Source of the DNA: an uncultured bacterium
GTDB taxonomy: Bacteria; CALINM01
DNA: 14,603 nt
Direction of reading: 5' to 3'
Assembly (NCBI GenBank): GCA_938045315.1
Contig: CALINM010000081.1
Span: 1 to 14,603, forward strand
Part shown: one piece after another, positions 2,148 through 7,993 of the stretch
How the letters are laid out: every line of letters starts with the position of its first letter
Numbering within the stretch: position 1 is the stretch's first letter
The notes under the pieces: model-generated
What the model saw: only the letters and a program-made list of their open reading frames with translations
What the model was told of the DNA's origin: nothing
Databases searched by the model: none
Position numbers and translations under genes: made by a program

Positions 2148-3136
2148 TTAGCATAATCTTATTTTTGCTAAAATCAAAGGCATTGTAAAAATAGTATTAA
2201 GGGCAGGGCCTGACAAAGGATCTTCATTAACTGGATTTGATACTGGATAGGTGTAAGCACCAGATGATGTTGTTTGAATATTACTATCAATAGCAACATT
2301 AGCAAAGATAAAAAGCTTCTGCCCCAGTGAATCAATTAAAAAGATGAAGTTGTTATCCGTATTTATACCCGATGCAGTTAAAACTTCTCCAATTACAGGC
2401 TTTGTGCCATGTATCACAAATTGCCGTGCACCATTCGTCCCGGGATCACAACTATACCCAGTATTTGGATTTGCAAATACCTGAATTTTTCCCTCTGGCC
2501 TTCCAGCATAGGAAGTTACTCTATCATACTGCCTTTTAAAGGGATTCCATTTCAAAGTTTGCTTAAAGCAGGGTGTGAAATTTAAAAAATCTGCTACAAG
2601 CAATTTGCCTGTTGTGCTATCAAAAGTAATACCCGATGGTAAATAAAATTGACCATTACCATAAGATAGGGAAGGGTTGTAGTAAGGAAAAGCACCATTG
2701 CCAACAAGAGTATTAAAACTTCCGTCTGATAAAGAGTATGACTTAATATTTTTGTCATACATATCTGTGGCATATAAATACCCATCTGGCCCTACCGCAA
2801 GGTCAGCTGGTCTTGTAAGGTTTTTATAAGTTTCTGAGCCTGTAAAACCACTTCCATAATTGGCTATAAAACTACCATCAGAAGCGTTATATATTTTCCC
2901 ACCATCATTTTCTGTAGCAACAGCAATTTATTAGATGAATATGCAATTGCTACAGGCCTGGTTATATTTACGAAAGTGGTTACATTTTTTGAAGGGTCAA
3001 CTTTAAAAACAGCGTTTGCTCCCCAATCAGCTACATATACATTAGTACCATCAGTAGTTACACCGATTGGATTAATAAAACCCTTTTCAGGGCCTGAAAT
3101 TTTTATAATTTTTTTTACGCCAAATAACGTAATCAC
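2148..3136 (-). pseudogene. NHL-repeat/beta-propeller protein, frameshifted
   Basis: Translation from GTG 3136 gives NHL-type blades: INPIGVTTDGTNVYVADWG, then NAVFKVDPSKNVTTF, then RPVAIAYSSNK. At about 2925-2928 the frame breaks. The following frame, starting AVATENDGGKIYNASDG, continues with TRPADLAVGPDGYLYATDMY and LPSGITFDSTTGKLLVADF to the stop at 2148-2150. Adding one base near 2927 joins the two halves, so this is a single gene of about 330 codons. GTG 3136 overlaps the TGA of the DUF192 gene (GTGA), suggesting translational coupling. The protein has no signal peptide of its own, which is unusual because NHL proteins of this type are generally exported; its true 5' end may therefore be lost or the start may differ. 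The C-terminus (…AKIRLC) also looks frameshifted: a neighbouring frame reads FDFSKNKIMLT past the stop, toward the IS256 remnant. Function unknown; such propellers usually bind proteins or ligands. Confidence 0.72.
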
Positions 3137-3556: not shown

Positions 3557-4024
3557 TTACACCTCTATCTCATGCAGTATACTTATTTTGAAAACTTTAA
3601 AAAGCAGATTTACCGCAGGCTTTTGGCTTATATTAATAAGTTTTTTCACTAAAAGATTATACTCCCCCAATGTTACATGTATCTCTTGATTAATTTTTAT
3701 TATATCTTCGCTGGATTCAATACCTTTAATAGACTCGCTGATTTCGTGTTCTACTTTTAATTTTCCATAAATATCCCTCGTTTGGTTCGATGTGTTTACA
3801 AGGGAAATAATTTTTGAAAGAATCATCAAGGAATTTGTGGAACTTAAAAATTTTTCATTAATTAACGTTTCTATTAGCTCATGCCTTTTGTCAAATAATC
3901 TAATAAGTTTGCCCAGCAAATTTTGGGCTGCATGCTTGATCTTATATATTTTATATAACCATAAACTGCTCCAGATAACTAATAAAATTAGCAAAACAAT
4001 AATTATGAAGTAAATATAAAACAT
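3557..4024 (-). CDS. LemA-like membrane-anchored protein
   Basis: 155 residues with one strong N-terminal membrane segment at about residues 3-25 (FIIIVLLILLVIW). A predicted helical region follows, containing L-F-D-K-R-H-E-L-I-E-T-L-I at 43-55. This resembles the LemA core (…L.RRHDLIPNLV…), and the later EYNLLVKKLI (121-130) with a hydrophobic tail P-A-V-N-L-L-F-K resembles LemA's YN..V..YN.....P. The fold would be an antiparallel helical bundle outside or inside a single-pass anchor. LemA proteins are widespread and of uncertain role. Similarity is by pattern only and the usual conserved middle region is weak, so this may be a distant relative. The start ATG at 4022-4024 has GGTGA just upstream, overlapping the aldolase stop, and it is 3 bp from that gene in the same apparent operon. 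Confidence 0.6.
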   Translation of the reverse strand: MFYIYFIIIVLLILLVIWSSLWLYKIYKIKHAAQNLLGKLIRLFDKRHELIETLINEKFLSSTNSLMILSKIISLVNTSNQTRDIYGKLKVEHEISESIKGIESSEDIIKINQEIHVTLGEYNLLVKKLINISQKPAVNLLFKVFKISILHEIEV

Positions 4025-4027
4025 ATT

Positions 4028-4618
4028 TCACCAGTTAGAATTTTTAAAAAACCCCTTTCCCTTTGATCTGTAAAACATTATTTTACAGGAATGTTCCAGT
4101 GTAGATGTATATGAAAATGCCTCTTCCAGCAAAAGACCTGTTGAAAAGCTCCCATGACCTTTTAACATAACAATTTTATACTCCTGCAAATACTTAGGTA
4201 TTATATCTGCCACTTCTCTTGATCCAACAGACCTTTTCGTTGCAATTACAGGGACTTTTTTTAAGATATAATTCCCCTCAGAATCATCAAGAATTATCTC
4301 TTCACATTCCATTGACAAAGCTGTTGCAATTGGTGGGTGTGCATGAAAAACTGCAAGGGCAGAAGTTTTTTTATAGATGGCTCTATGCACTACTATCTCT
4401 GTAGATGCTAAACAAATATTTGAATCTATATCATCTATCAAAGTTTCTATTATATCTTCTTCTGACAAACTGCCAAGCATAGAACCTCTTCTGGTTATAT
4501 AAATCTTTTCACCCACTTTTACACTCATATTACCGCCATGTGAAGAAAAGAGTCCCTGTTGCCAGCCTAATTTACCAATTTTTGCAAACTCTTCCCAGAT
4601 TTTTACTATACTAGCCAT
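4028..4618 (-). CDS. Class II aldolase, FucA/adducin-type
   Basis: 196 residues, close to the usual length of bacterial L-fuculose-1-phosphate aldolase-type enzymes. Zinc-dependent members cleave ketose 1-phosphates to dihydroxyacetone phosphate plus an aldehyde. Visible motifs are S-S-H-G-G-N-M-S-V-K (25-34, the phosphate-binding GN.S loop), ITRRGSMLG (41-49), STE (72-74), H-A-H-P-P (92-96) and KGHGSFSTG (153-161). E73, H92, H94 and H155 correspond by position to the catalytic Glu and three zinc His residues I recall for E. coli FucA, so the active site appears intact. The loop reads ITRRGS where typical members have ITPSG, suggesting a different substrate. It overlaps the AOR gene by 13 bp and precedes the LemA-like gene by 3 bp. 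Fuculose-, rhamnulose-, 5-deoxyribulose- and methylthioribulose-phosphate substrates are all possible. Kinase and isomerase partners are absent here, so no gene symbol is assigned. Confidence 0.88.
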   Translation of the reverse strand: MASIVKIWEEFAKIGKLGWQQGLFSSHGGNMSVKVGEKIYITRRGSMLGSLSEEDIIETLIDDIDSNICLASTEIVVHRAIYKKTSALAVFHAHPPIATALSMECEEIILDDSEGNYILKKVPVIATKRSVGSREVADIIPKYLQEYKIVMLKGHGSFSTGLLLEEAFSYTSTLEHSCKIMFYRSKGKGFFKNSNW

Positions 4619-6321
4619 TCTAAACCCAATTCTTTTAATTTCCGCTGTTTGGGAAAGCCAGTTTTTTCATCCCACCCCCTTGCTAAATAATACTCATCTA
4701 ACATGTCTTCATACTCATCAAAATACAGTCGAGGCGGAAGATAATCATCCTCTCTTTTAAAGCCCGCTTTTATGTTAAAAATTCTTTCTAAATTGTAAAT
4801 CCTCTCCCCTATTTTCTGGAATTCCACTGTTGATAAATCCAAACCAGTATAAGCATTTAACAGACGGGATAGATAATCGTCCGATACAGCAAGCCCTAAA
4901 AATCTGCAAAAAATAGAACTATCAGAAGCACAATGACTATTTTGTAAATATATTACTATTCCAGCTTTTCCCTTTGACATTTTTCTATTAATCAATTTGG
5001 GTATACCAAGCACTTCCGGAGCTAGCATATATGCCCTCAAATGACACCCCCCTCTATTGGATGTACCATAGGATAGAGCCATCCCATAAATACCCTTAGG
5101 ATGGTAAGCTGGTAACTCCAGTCCTTTAACTGTCATCGATAGTTCTTTTCTGCCAAGCTTTTCAGCTAATCTTCTGCTCCCTAAGGAGATATCTTTGCCT
5201 TCATCTAATGCCTCCAGTGTTTTATTAATCAATTCTGATACAATTTTTATATCACCAAAGGGAATTTGATTTATCTCAAGAAATGCAGCGATACTTCCAC
5301 CAAGAGAGATAGTATCAACACCATAATCTGCACATAATTTATTAAATTCAATAACTGCGTCAAGATCAGATATCCCTAAATTTGCTCCCAAAGCCCAGAG
5401 TGTTTCGTATTCCGGACCTTCTCCTTTATCTGTGATACGCCCACAGGCAATCTTACAACCAATACAGGCTCTCTTTTTAATGACCTTGTTTTTTAAAGAT
5501 TCTCCTGATATTTTATCTGCTTCTTCAAAAAAGATTTCTTGAAAATTTTTATGGGGCAAAATCTTTAATTCATTAATTAAATTCAACAAGAGGGAAGTTC
5601 CGAACTCTGGCAAACCCTGTGAAGTAATTGGATTAGCATAAATCCACTTATCTATCTCATCACTCACATAGTTAAATCTCTCTTTATCAAAGGGATTAAA
5701 GATATTTTTTTCCCTTCTCTTAACTACTAAAGCTAACAAATTTTTAGAGTTAAAAACTAAACCCCCACCACCTCTACCAAAGTATCTGTTATCTGAGGAT
5801 AGATTAGAAAAAATAACCCCCCTTTCAGCAGAAGGCCCACACATTATATATGAAATATCTTCGCCGAATTTTTCCTTTAACTTACCTATTCTCTCAGGGA
5901 TCTTTTTACCTTTTAAGTAGATTCCCTCGTGGAAACTTATTTTTTCATCTTCTATATAAATTATTGAGGGGGATTCTAATCTTCCTGTTATAACAATCCC
6001 ATCAATACCATTTTTTACGAAATACACACCTCCATATCCACCACATGAACTATCAAAAATTGTTCCCGTTAAAGGGGACTTAAATACACAGTGAAACCTA
6101 CCAGTTAATGGTCCTGTACTACCCGTTAAAGGACCCGTAAGAAAGAAAATAGGGGCCTCTGGATCTAATGGATCAATATCAGGACTGGCGAATTCAAAAT
6201 ATAGTCTTACCCCAAGCCCCCTCCCTCCTAAAAACTGCTTTATAATTGAAGCATCCAGTTTTTTATTTTTTACAGTTTTCTTTGTTAGGTTTAGATGTGT
6301 AAGTCTATACTCAAGGCTCAT
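4606..6321 (-). CDS. Tungsten/molybdenum-type aldehyde:ferredoxin oxidoreductase (AOR family)
   Basis: 571 residues, slightly short of the roughly 600 typical of the family. AOR enzymes oxidise aldehydes to carboxylates (or the reverse) with ferredoxin, using a bis-pyranopterin tungsten or molybdenum cofactor and one [4Fe-4S] cluster, in the cytoplasm. The N-terminal domain shows FLGGRGLGVRLYFE (30-43), LTGPLTGSTGP with RFHCVFKSPLTG, and S-S-C-G-G-Y-G-G (91-98). The RYFGRGGGGLVFNSKNL block (179-195) is the usual domain boundary. The cluster ligands are visible as C286-x2-C289-x3-C293 and C472 (DSSIFCRF). HLRAYMLAPEVLGIP (427-441) matches the second pterin-binding region. The gene starts with an ATGA overlap at the folK stop and its end overlaps the aldolase by 13 bp, so co-expression with both is likely. 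Substrate cannot be read from sequence. No separate small electron-transfer subunit lies nearby, suggesting free ferredoxin is used. Confidence 0.93.
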   Translation of the reverse strand: MSLEYRLTHLNLTKKTVKNKKLDASIIKQFLGGRGLGVRLYFEFASPDIDPLDPEAPIFFLTGPLTGSTGPLTGRFHCVFKSPLTGTIFDSSCGGYGGVYFVKNGIDGIVITGRLESPSIIYIEDEKISFHEGIYLKGKKIPERIGKLKEKFGEDISYIMCGPSAERGVIFSNLSSDNRYFGRGGGGLVFNSKNLLALVVKRREKNIFNPFDKERFNYVSDEIDKWIYANPITSQGLPEFGTSLLLNLINELKILPHKNFQEIFFEEADKISGESLKNKVIKKRACIGCKIACGRITDKGEGPEYETLWALGANLGISDLDAVIEFNKLCADYGVDTISLGGSIAAFLEINQIPFGDIKIVSELINKTLEALDEGKDISLGSRRLAEKLGRKELSMTVKGLELPAYHPKGIYGMALSYGTSNRGGCHLRAYMLAPEVLGIPKLINRKMSKGKAGIVIYLQNSHCASDSSIFCRFLGLAVSDDYLSRLLNAYTGLDLSTVEFQKIGERIYNLERIFNIKAGFKREDDYLPPRLYFDEYEDMLDEYYLARGWDEKTGFPKQRKLKELGLEWLV

Positions 6322-6827
6322 TTAAATATTCCCGGGAAATCCTGAATTTCTAATTTTTTCATCCTCTGCTCATTAATCAGGTCATTTTTTAAATTAGCTA
6401 TGGATTTAAAGTACAGGGGGTGTATATAGTTTTCACACAATTCAGCAAGGGGATAGAGCACAAAAGCCCTATTTTTTAAATGGGGATGTGGCACAATTAT
6501 ATCTAAATCAGAGTATATAACATCATCATAAAATAAAATGTCTAAATCGATTATACGGGGACCATATTTGAAGGTTTTAATCCTTCCCATTTTTTTTTCC
6601 ACATTTTTTAAAAATATAAAAAGGTTCTGAAGGCTAAAAGAGGTTTTAAGTTCTATTACTCCATTGATAAACTCTGGTTGATCTCTATAACCAACAGGTT
6701 CAGTCTCATAAAGATTCGATAAAACTATCGCATTAATTTCCTCTTCAGCCTTGAGATATTCTATTGCTCTCTTGATATTTGCTAATCTATCACCTAAATT
6801 TGTTCCAATACCAATATAGGCTATCAT
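6318..6827 (-). CDS. folK: 2-amino-4-hydroxy-6-hydroxymethyldihydropteridine pyrophosphokinase (HPPK)
   Basis: 169 residues, normal for single-domain HPPK, which transfers pyrophosphate from ATP to 6-hydroxymethyl-7,8-dihydropterin in folate synthesis. Diagnostic segments are YIGIGTNLGDR (4-14), Y-E-T-E-P-V-G (40-46) with QPEFIN, the family signature KYGPRIIDLDILFY (87-100) containing the two magnesium-binding aspartates D94 and D96, and PHPHLKNRAFVLYPLAEL (113-130). No other folate genes are visible; folK sits between dapL (2 bp upstream) and the AOR gene (ATGA overlap), inside a mainly lysine-biosynthetic transcript. Only an AGGG about 14 bases upstream could serve as a ribosome binding site, so translation may depend on coupling with dapL. 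Confidence 0.95.
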   Translation of the reverse strand: MIAYIGIGTNLGDRLANIKRAIEYLKAEEEINAIVLSNLYETEPVGYRDQPEFINGVIELKTSFSLQNLFIFLKNVEKKMGRIKTFKYGPRIIDLDILFYDDVIYSDLDIIVPHPHLKNRAFVLYPLAELCENYIHPLYFKSIANLKNDLINEQRMKKLEIQDFPGIFK

Positions 6828-6829
6828 TT

Positions 6830-7993
6830 TTAAAAACTTACCCTTTCAATCCTATCAAGGGCTTCGAGCAACTTTTCTTTATCCACCGTTAAAGCTATTC
6901 TAAAATATCCTTCTCCATGGGAACCAAAACCCACCCCTGGGGTAAGAACAACACCAGTTTCTTCAAGTATTTTCCCGCAGAAGGTTCTTGAATCAATATT
7001 ATTAGGAGTCTTTACCCATACATAAAAGGTAGCCTGAGGATAAAAAACATCGTACCCAAGACTCTGCAATTTTTGCACAACTAAATCACGCCTTTCTTTA
7101 TATATACTTCTATATTTATTTACGATACTCTGATCACCCGATAATGCTTCTATACCAGCTTCTTGAACTGCCTGAAAGATACCAGAGTCAACATTAGTTT
7201 TGATCTTCCCAAGACCCTCAATAATAGATTTGTTCCCCACTGCAAAGCCAATTCTCCATCCCGTCATGCTGTAAGTTTTTGATAATGAATGCATCTCTAT
7301 AGCAACATCCCTGGCTCCATCTACATTAAAAATACTAATTGGCGGCTCTTCATAAAAAAGCTCAGAATATGCCATATCATGGCACACTATAAACTTATAT
7401 TTATGGGCTAAATCAACTACCTCTTGAAAAAAATTCTTATTTGCCATTGCAGATGTGGGATTATTGGGATAATTTATGTGCATCATTTTAGTTTTTTTCA
7501 GAACATCTTCAGGAATTGCTTTTAAATCGGGCAAAAAATTATTTTCCCTTTTCAAAGGCATTATGTAAGAAATACCACCTGCAAATATTGTCCCTATGTT
7601 ATAAACGGGATACCCAGGATCGGGTACCAAGACGTAATCACCGGGATTAACAAAAGCAAGGGGTATATGCGCTATCCCTTCTTTAGAACCAATAAGTGAT
7701 ACAACTTCATTTTCTGGATTAAATTCAACCCCAAATCTATTCTTAATCCATAAAGAAGCAGCCTTCCTGAACTCATATAAACCCTCATAATCAGGATATT
7801 TATGGTTCTTTGGATCTTCTGCAGCCCTCTTCAGTCTCTCTACTATATGATGTGGAGTGGGAAGATCTGGATCCCCTATCCCCAGGCTTATTATATTTAT
7901 TCCTTTAGATGCAACCTCCTTCTTCTTTCTATCAATTTCTGCAAAAAGATATGGTGGTAGTTTTTTCAGTCTCTCTGACTTTTCAAAATCCAT
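6830..7993 (-). CDS. dapL: LL-diaminopimelate aminotransferase
   Basis: 387 residues, a fold-type I PLP aminotransferase. It converts tetrahydrodipicolinate directly to LL-diaminopimelate using glutamate as amino donor. Motifs are PPYLFAEIDRKKKEV (13-27), IISLGIGDPDLPTP (34-47), IGSKEGI (101-107), MHINYPNNPTSA (171-182), HDMAYSELFY (205-214) and the PLP lysine K239 in SLSKTYSMTGWRIGF (236-250). The late E-G-Y-F-R-I-A-L carries the substrate-carboxylate arginine. The assignment to DapL rather than a generic aspartate aminotransferase rests on the PPYLFAEIDRKK/GIGDPDLPTP pattern and on the surrounding dapA, dapB, dapF and lysA. The start ATG has a strong AAAGGAG at 8000-8006 with 6-base spacing, overlapping the stop of the FAH-family gene. 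Its presence explains why no dapC, dapD or dapE is needed. Confidence 0.93.
   Translation of the reverse strand: MDFEKSERLKKLPPYLFAEIDRKKKEVASKGINIISLGIGDPDLPTPHHIVERLKRAAEDPKNHKYPDYEGLYEFRKAASLWIKNRFGVEFNPENEVVSLIGSKEGIAHIPLAFVNPGDYVLVPDPGYPVYNIGTIFAGGISYIMPLKRENNFLPDLKAIPEDVLKKTKMMHINYPNNPTSAMANKNFFQEVVDLAHKYKFIVCHDMAYSELFYEEPPISIFNVDGARDVAIEMHSLSKTYSMTGWRIGFAVGNKSIIEGLGKIKTNVDSGIFQAVQEAGIEALSGDQSIVNKYRSIYKERRDLVVQKLQSLGYDVFYPQATFYVWVKTPNNIDSRTFCGKILEETGVVLTPGVGFGSHGEGYFRIALTVDKEKLLEALDRIERVSF

Follow-up and report, generated by a model that had tools for sequence, protein, structure and literature searches.

A conserved gene pair for a class II aldolase and an aldehyde:ferredoxin oxidoreductase in archaea and bacteria, and its predicted role in an anaerobic catabolic module

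An aldolase gene paired with an AOR gene

The window analysed here is the whole of contig CALINM010000081.1 (C81; 14,603 nucleotides) from an uncultured bacterium of GTDB lineage CALINM01, represented by a 1.86-Mb metagenome-assembled genome (MAG) that is 92% complete (G000). Its minus strand carries a gene for an aldehyde:ferredoxin oxidoreductase (AOR), followed directly by one for a class II aldolase (Table 1). Two further sampled genomes of the lineage were compared, the only other one in the genus (G001) and one in the family (G002), which appear in public records as 'Proteobacteria bacterium' SKW176 and SKW305, respectively. G000, G001 and G002, all drafts that are 84–92% complete, are referred to as the window family. 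The analysis established by computation what the genes are, how widely the pair is conserved, how the AORs group, which genes lie around them, and which marker genes are present or absent in the draft genomes.

The initial annotation described the two open reading frames (ORFs) as overlapping, which is correct, and took the overlap as a sign of fixed stoichiometry, which is unsupported. The corresponding genes are separated by 3 bp in G001 and by 6 bp in G002, and the spacing in other pairs ranges from overlaps to +43 bp. Adjacency and gene order are conserved, and the 13-bp overlap is specific to the window genome; as a conserved coupling signal it is ruled out by the gaps in G001 and G002 and by the variable spacing.

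Table 1. Features of the AOR-aldolase region of the window
Feature	Position	Strand	Evidence
AOR-family (probably tungstopterin) aldehyde:ferredoxin oxidoreductase gene, 571 aa, ATG start, aldolase-paired clade	4606..6321	-	Pfam AFOR_N/AFOR_C, phmmer, structural model, residues, tree
FucA-fold class II (metal-dependent) ketose-1-phosphate aldolase gene, 196 aa, ATG start, NCBIfam PRK08660 type	4028..4618	-	Pfam Aldolase_II, NF006413, structural model, residues
AOR/aldolase gene overlap, 13 bp	4606..4618	-	ORF coordinates; absent in sister genomes G001 and G002
folK (HPPK), upstream operon neighbour, 4-bp overlap with AOR start	6318..6827	-	TIGR01498, 137.5 bits (cut-off 54.1)
LL-diaminopimelate aminotransferase gene (dapL), first gene of conserved dapL-folK-AOR-aldolase block	6830..7993	-	TIGR03540, 624 bits (cut-off 593); order kept in G001 and G002
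155-aa ORF directly downstream of aldolase	3557..4024	-	Membrane-like N-terminus by reading; homologues in same place in G001 and G002

Assignment of the two proteins

The window AOR is covered over its whole length by the Pfam domains AFOR_N (193 bits, cut-off 29.8) and AFOR_C (379 bits, cut-off 27), and matches the Pyrococcus furiosus AOR (1aor) with a phmmer E value of 6e-120. Its AlphaFold model (predicted local distance difference test score, pLDDT, 94) superimposes on 9mqx and 1aor with Z scores of 56.5 and 55.5, respectively, and a root-mean-square deviation (rmsd) of 1.2 over 567–568 aligned residues. The cysteines C286, C289, C293 and C472, listed in the initial annotation of this gene as complete, do not vary among relatives and correspond to C288, C291, C295 and C494 of the P. 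furiosus enzyme, and equivalents of P. furiosus E313 and H448 are retained. Domains, cluster cysteines, Glu and His all place the protein in the AOR family. A tungsto- or molybdopterin cofactor and ferredoxin-linked oxidation of an aldehyde are predicted, the metal probably being W or Mo.

G000 has four other AOR-family genes, on contigs C50, C54, C116 and C196 (loci L067, L068, L069 and L070), making five with that of the window. By reading, a ferredoxin-like gene adjoins three of these four and several AORs outside the paired clade described below, and none was seen beside the paired AOR, which fits free ferredoxin as its acceptor. The AOR on C50 lies near genes for BcrA/BadF-type ATPases and a thiolase, which suggests a role in CoA-ester metabolism.

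The aldolase matches Pfam Aldolase_II (105.9 bits, cut-off 22.2) and the NCBIfam PRK08660 type (NF006413; 217.5 bits, cut-off 203). Its AlphaFold model (pLDDT 92) aligns with 2fk5 over 188 residues (Z 31.1, rmsd 1.3) and less closely with the 5-deoxyribulose-1-phosphate aldolase DrdA (6btd; Z 24.7, 21% identity on the structural alignment); 2fk5 aside, the fold comparison does not tell FucA, DrdA and the remaining members of the family apart. In a 30-member subfamily alignment E74, H92, H94 and H155 are invariant. Hence, the domain, metal-binding histidines, catalytic Glu and fold identify a class II aldolase with the FucA fold. The three histidines had been named correctly before, but the catalytic Glu, given as E73, is E74 in the protein's own numbering. 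The same alignment disposes of an earlier suggestion that the loop sequence ITRRGS is unusual and points to an odd substrate, as ITRRGSMLG is the majority sequence in the subfamily.

Models for specific enzymes were not matched above their cut-offs: the aldolase scores 32.6 bits (cut-off 400) against the L-fuculose-1-phosphate aldolase model TIGR01086, 84 bits (cut-off 250) against NF040649 (FucA_Meth), and 41.9 bits (cut-off 137) against the methylthioribulose-1-phosphate dehydratase (MtnB) model TIGR03328.

Conservation of the pair

Patterns derived from five aldolases were scanned against 84,980 species genomes, giving 77 loci, of which 74 were used. In 22 of these, including G001 and G002, an AOR gene precedes the aldolase gene on the same strand, immediately in 20 and across one intervening gene in two. 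Extending the range to eight genes added only one other locus with any AOR. The paired loci belong to Lokiarchaeota, Sigynarchaeota, Helarchaeota, Bathyarchaeota, Chloroflexota, a 'Deltaproteobacteria' MAG, Aminicenantes and the window family. As the scan is biased to close aldolases, 22 of 74 is not a general rate. No aldolase relative was found in viral contigs.

A reciprocal test free of this bias started from the AOR in 400 Chloroflexota genomes. Five had an AOR scoring above 840 bits against a profile of paired AORs, and in four of the five the aldolase gene follows directly, two of these pairs being previously unseen. The next-best genomes, with AORs at or below 691 bits, showed no aldolase beside the AOR. 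A search of the phylum around genome G044, which reached four genomes, found no paired AOR.

In a tree of 51 AORs, the 23 paired AORs group together with that of locus L036, requiring 2 label changes compared with 17.0 for shuffled labels. Support for exactly this clade is low (83/33) and rises to 96/90 when the long-branched L037 is included; the paired AORs thus form almost one clade. The L036 AOR has an upstream aldolase gene encoding two aldolase domains, one of which by reading lacks the HxH motif. P. furiosus R76, E313, H448 and the four cluster cysteines are retained in 23/23 paired AORs. All 23 also have Lys or Arg adjoining the fourth cluster Cys, a site that varies among other AORs. 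Pairwise distances among AORs and among aldolases are correlated (Mantel r 0.90; 0 of 2000 permutations).

The pair therefore recurs, with co-varying sequences, in archaea and several bacterial phyla and is not confined to one genome, a situation that would have told against the initial annotation.

Double-domain class II aldolases were noted beside AORs in G042 (L059 1-1215), where the second domain seemingly lacks the metal histidines, and in Aminicenantes (L147 9980-11209). In L091, L092, L093 and L096 (Bathyarchaeota, Sigynarchaeota and one MAG labelled Lokiarchaeota) a gene of the DHDPS/KDG-aldolase family, possibly a second aldehyde-releasing aldolase, is directly upstream of the pair. 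Other aldolase loci differ: in Desulfurobacteriaceae (L094, L098, L110, L115, L118, L123 and L130) a tyrA-like prephenate dehydrogenase gene follows the same aldolase type without an AOR, and in a Methanocellaceae MAG (L117 10531-11196) the aldolase gene is followed by a deoC-like gene for a deoxyribose-phosphate aldolase, another acetaldehyde-handling enzyme.

Neighbouring genes

The minus-strand gene set of the window comprises lysA, dapF, dapA, dapB, an FAH-type hydrolase gene, dapL, folK and the AOR, aldolase and 155-aa ORF genes; lysA, dapF, dapA and dapB were identified by reading, and dapL and folK by curated cut-offs. The order from dapL to the 155-aa ORF is retained in G001 and in G002, where the remaining lysine-operon genes are missing from this site. 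The 155-aa ORF, which has no Pfam or NCBIfam match, shares 47% and 30% identity with its homologues in G001 and G002, respectively. Besides these genomes, folK is near the pair in the 'Deltaproteobacteria' locus L077, and in a second 'Deltaproteobacteria' MAG (L087) it is upstream of an aldolase gene without an AOR. It is probably a housekeeping passenger.

Elsewhere in the window, a B12-binding/radical SAM gene on the plus strand (613-1551) is seemingly split into two ORFs (B12-binding 613-918, radical SAM 1042-1551), perhaps through a frameshift or an assembly error, and a minus-strand gene for a secreted NHL-like protein (2148-3136; by reading, no Pfam match) is apparently broken into two ORFs. 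At the position of the latter in G001 (L057 1-1012) is a longer, 337-aa ORF that runs off the contig. Neither Rfam nor tRNA searches gave a match in the window.

A predicted aldolase-AOR module

As judged from the genomic data, the aldolase and AOR very probably act one after the other in a single anaerobic catabolic module. The aldolase would split a deoxy-ketose 1-phosphate to dihydroxyacetone phosphate (DHAP) and a short aldehyde, and the AOR would oxidise the aldehyde to an acid, passing two electrons to ferredoxin. In this way the AOR step would pull an unfavourable aldol cleavage forward and remove a toxic aldehyde. The core of the initial annotation, in which an aldehyde released by the aldolase is oxidised with ferredoxin, is thus supported by adjacency across phyla and by the gene neighbourhoods in Lokiarchaeota, but its arguments from overlap and loop sequence are not.

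In Lokiarchaeota the neighbours of the pair include genes for L-rhamnose isomerase (RhaA), L-fucose isomerase (FucI, over its cut-off), an α-L-rhamnosidase and a GlcD-like FAD oxidase. An FGGY kinase by the pair is closest to rhamnulokinase, and a LarA-type (lactate) racemase is also present, both just under their cut-offs; in a Dehalococcoidia locus (L078) LarA is found with the pair over its cut-off. These genes are pooled over the Lokiarchaeota loci, and no one locus has the full set. Together they suggest a route in which rhamnose or fucose would be converted to a ketose 1-phosphate, which the aldolase would cleave to DHAP and L-lactaldehyde. The AOR would then oxidise L-lactaldehyde to L-lactate with formation of reduced ferredoxin, replacing the AldA of Escherichia coli, and, going by family membership, the racemase would give D-lactate and the oxidase pyruvate. 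L-Lactaldehyde is the most likely aldehyde in these archaea.

Input in the window family

None of the sugar genes of the Lokiarchaeota type is near the pair in the window family, and the fucose isomerase C-domain (PF02952) was found in 0/3 of the draft genomes. Acireductone dioxygenase was also found in none of the three. A methylthioadenosine phosphorylase (MtnP) is encoded in G000 and G001, and the isomerase MtnA in all three genomes, two of the genes being cut by contig ends (that of G002 at a contig end). Because MtnP and MtnA were found and fucose isomerase and acireductone dioxygenase were not, 5-deoxypentose phosphates, the spent products of S-adenosylmethionine (SAM), are the likelier input here, and for the window genome this proposal is given about an even chance.

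Two class II aldolases with such substrates have been described. DrdA cleaves 5-deoxyribulose 1-phosphate to DHAP and acetaldehyde, and Ald2 cleaves both this compound and methylthioribulose 1-phosphate to DHAP and (methylthio)acetaldehyde (PMC6079011, PMC10986504). The equilibrium constant for cleavage is ~1e-4 (PMC6079011, PMC10986504), so a strong aldehyde sink matters. In the window family MtnP and MtnA would make 5-deoxyribulose or methylthioribulose 1-phosphate, from which the aldolase would release acetaldehyde and/or (methylthio)acetaldehyde with DHAP. The simplest interpretation is a DHAP shunt of the phosphorylase type, in which the AOR, instead of an alcohol dehydrogenase, would serve as the aldehyde sink.

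Several observations weigh against the module or its assigned inputs. The aldolase falls under all FucA, MtnB and ribulose-1-phosphate aldolase equivalog cut-offs, so sequence families do not fix its substrate. Most of the scanned aldolase homologues lack an AOR neighbour, and hence this aldolase does not require an AOR. The correlation of AOR and aldolase distances is expected, at least in part, from common descent. Alone among paired AORs, those of the window family have Ser in place of P. furiosus Asn93, a residue of the Mg/pterin site. The genes mtnA, mtnP and that for the aldolase are on different contigs in unrelated neighbourhoods, unlike a DHAP-shunt gene cluster. MtnA was considered as proof of a SAM-derived input and rejected, since a match in 34/34 aldolase genomes is only mildly informative when 46/60 arbitrary genomes also have one. 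Lastly, the activities of both enzymes, their substrates, the reaction direction, the metal, the electron acceptor and sequential action are predictions from genomic data.

The earlier proposal of 5-deoxyribose or methylthioribose phosphates as input accordingly stands in part: the isomerase and phosphorylase are there and fucose isomerase and acireductone dioxygenase were not found, but MtnA is common and unlinked to the pair. Taken as a whole, the explanation combining the module, lactaldehyde in Lokiarchaeota and a 5-deoxypentose input in the window family is considered likely.

Alternative explanations

Deoxyhexose catabolism could operate in the window family too, with L-fuculose or L-rhamnulose 1-phosphate being cleaved and the AOR making lactate. 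The isomerases, kinase and rhamnosidase around the Lokiarchaeota pair and LarA in Dehalococcoidia would be in keeping with this. However, the neighbours in the window family are lysine and folate genes, with no rhamnose isomerase or rhamnulokinase near the pair, and these genomes gave no match to the fucose isomerase domain, although RhaA was not searched for genome-wide. This alternative is unlikely.

That the two genes are functionally unrelated operon passengers, together by descent, is improbable. The pair does end a lysine/folate housekeeping operon in the window family, and the aldolase is widespread without an AOR. Nevertheless, adjacency is kept across domains amid otherwise unrelated neighbourhoods, the gene order is reversed in G042, where the aldolase is duplicated, and chance is not a credible source of so many immediate AOR neighbours.

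A link to folate synthesis would have the AOR oxidise glycolaldehyde (or its phosphate) freed in the synthesis of 6-hydroxymethyl-dihydropterin, or the aldolase replace FolB, for which the window family gave no match. The position of folK, immediately before the pair in the window family, near it in L077 and upstream of the aldolase in L087, fits such a link, but folK occurs in varied housekeeping operons and the archaeal and Chloroflexota pairs have no folK neighbour. A PTPS with the motif CExxHGH replaces FolB. In both G001 and G002 (L073 594-1778 and L074 674-1866) a FolE2-like gene comes immediately after such a PTPS gene, the two forming a folate route of the PTPS-III type and making replacement of FolB by the aldolase unnecessary. 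Hence, a folate role is very improbable.

Acetogen AORs reduce acids. A biosynthetic direction, in which the AOR would reduce an acid with low-potential ferredoxin and the aldolase condense the aldehyde with DHAP to a deoxy-ketose 1-phosphate, agrees with this and with the aldol equilibrium, which favours condensation (PMC6079011), but is of similarly slight probability given the catabolic context in Lokiarchaeota (rhamnosidase, transporter, isomerases and kinase) and the lack of deoxysugar-using genes beside the window-family pair.

Against these alternatives, the preferred explanation remains consecutive action of the aldolase and AOR. A conserved aldolase partner would name, in testable form, the source of the aldehyde for a whole AOR clade. 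It would also provide an aldehyde-handling step for a DHAP shunt in strict anaerobes, explain how reduced ferredoxin could be gained from deoxy sugars or SAM waste, and give a complete proposed route from rhamnose or fucose to pyruvate in Lokiarchaeota. More tentatively, with somewhat less than even confidence, the pair may be a general ferredoxin-reducing module for products of class II aldolases, not described before and used across archaea and bacteria, fed by 6-deoxyhexoses in Asgard archaea and by SAM by-products (5-deoxyribose and methylthioribose phosphates) in anaerobes like that of the window, where radical-SAM waste would become a source of low-potential electrons.

Comparison with known systems

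The predicted window system resembles the DHAP shunt for disposal of 5-deoxyribose (DrdK-DrdI-DrdA, or MtnK or MtnP with MtnA and Ald2; PMC6079011, PMC10986504) in having an aldolase of the FucA fold, MtnP and MtnA in the genome, and DHAP with acetaldehyde or methylthioacetaldehyde as predicted products. It differs in that the aldolase gene is not clustered with mtnP or mtnA and encodes only a distant homologue of DrdA, and in that the sink would be an AOR, whereas an alcohol dehydrogenase or AdhE performs the last step of the route published for E. coli.

The reaction types are also those of L-fucose and L-rhamnose dissimilation (FucI/RhaA, FucK/RhaB, FucA/RhaD, and AldA or FucO), several enzymes of which have counterparts in the Lokiarchaeota loci but not beside the window-family pair; here the AOR would replace NAD-dependent AldA or FucO. 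In Methanocaldococcus jannaschii, the FucA homologue MJ1418 presumably takes part in forming the lactate of F420. This route (reference listed in PMC3087415) likewise couples a FucA-family aldolase to oxidation of the aldehyde to lactate, but with an NAD-type lactaldehyde dehydrogenase, and the window aldolase is far below the cut-off of the FucA_Meth model.

The window AOR shares the fold, cluster cysteines, E313, H448 and ~40% identity with the AORs of P. furiosus (1aor) and Clostridium autoethanogenum (9g7j) and with 9mqx. Unlike these, it belongs to a separate, aldolase-paired clade, in which Lys or Arg replaces Leu at P. furiosus position 495 throughout. The ~5.4 million open-access papers searched (subscription literature being outside the search) gave no account of this gene pair, nor of any AOR that uses what a class II aldolase releases. 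The two enzyme families, like the two pathway types, are already known; it is their pairing that appears undescribed in the literature searched.

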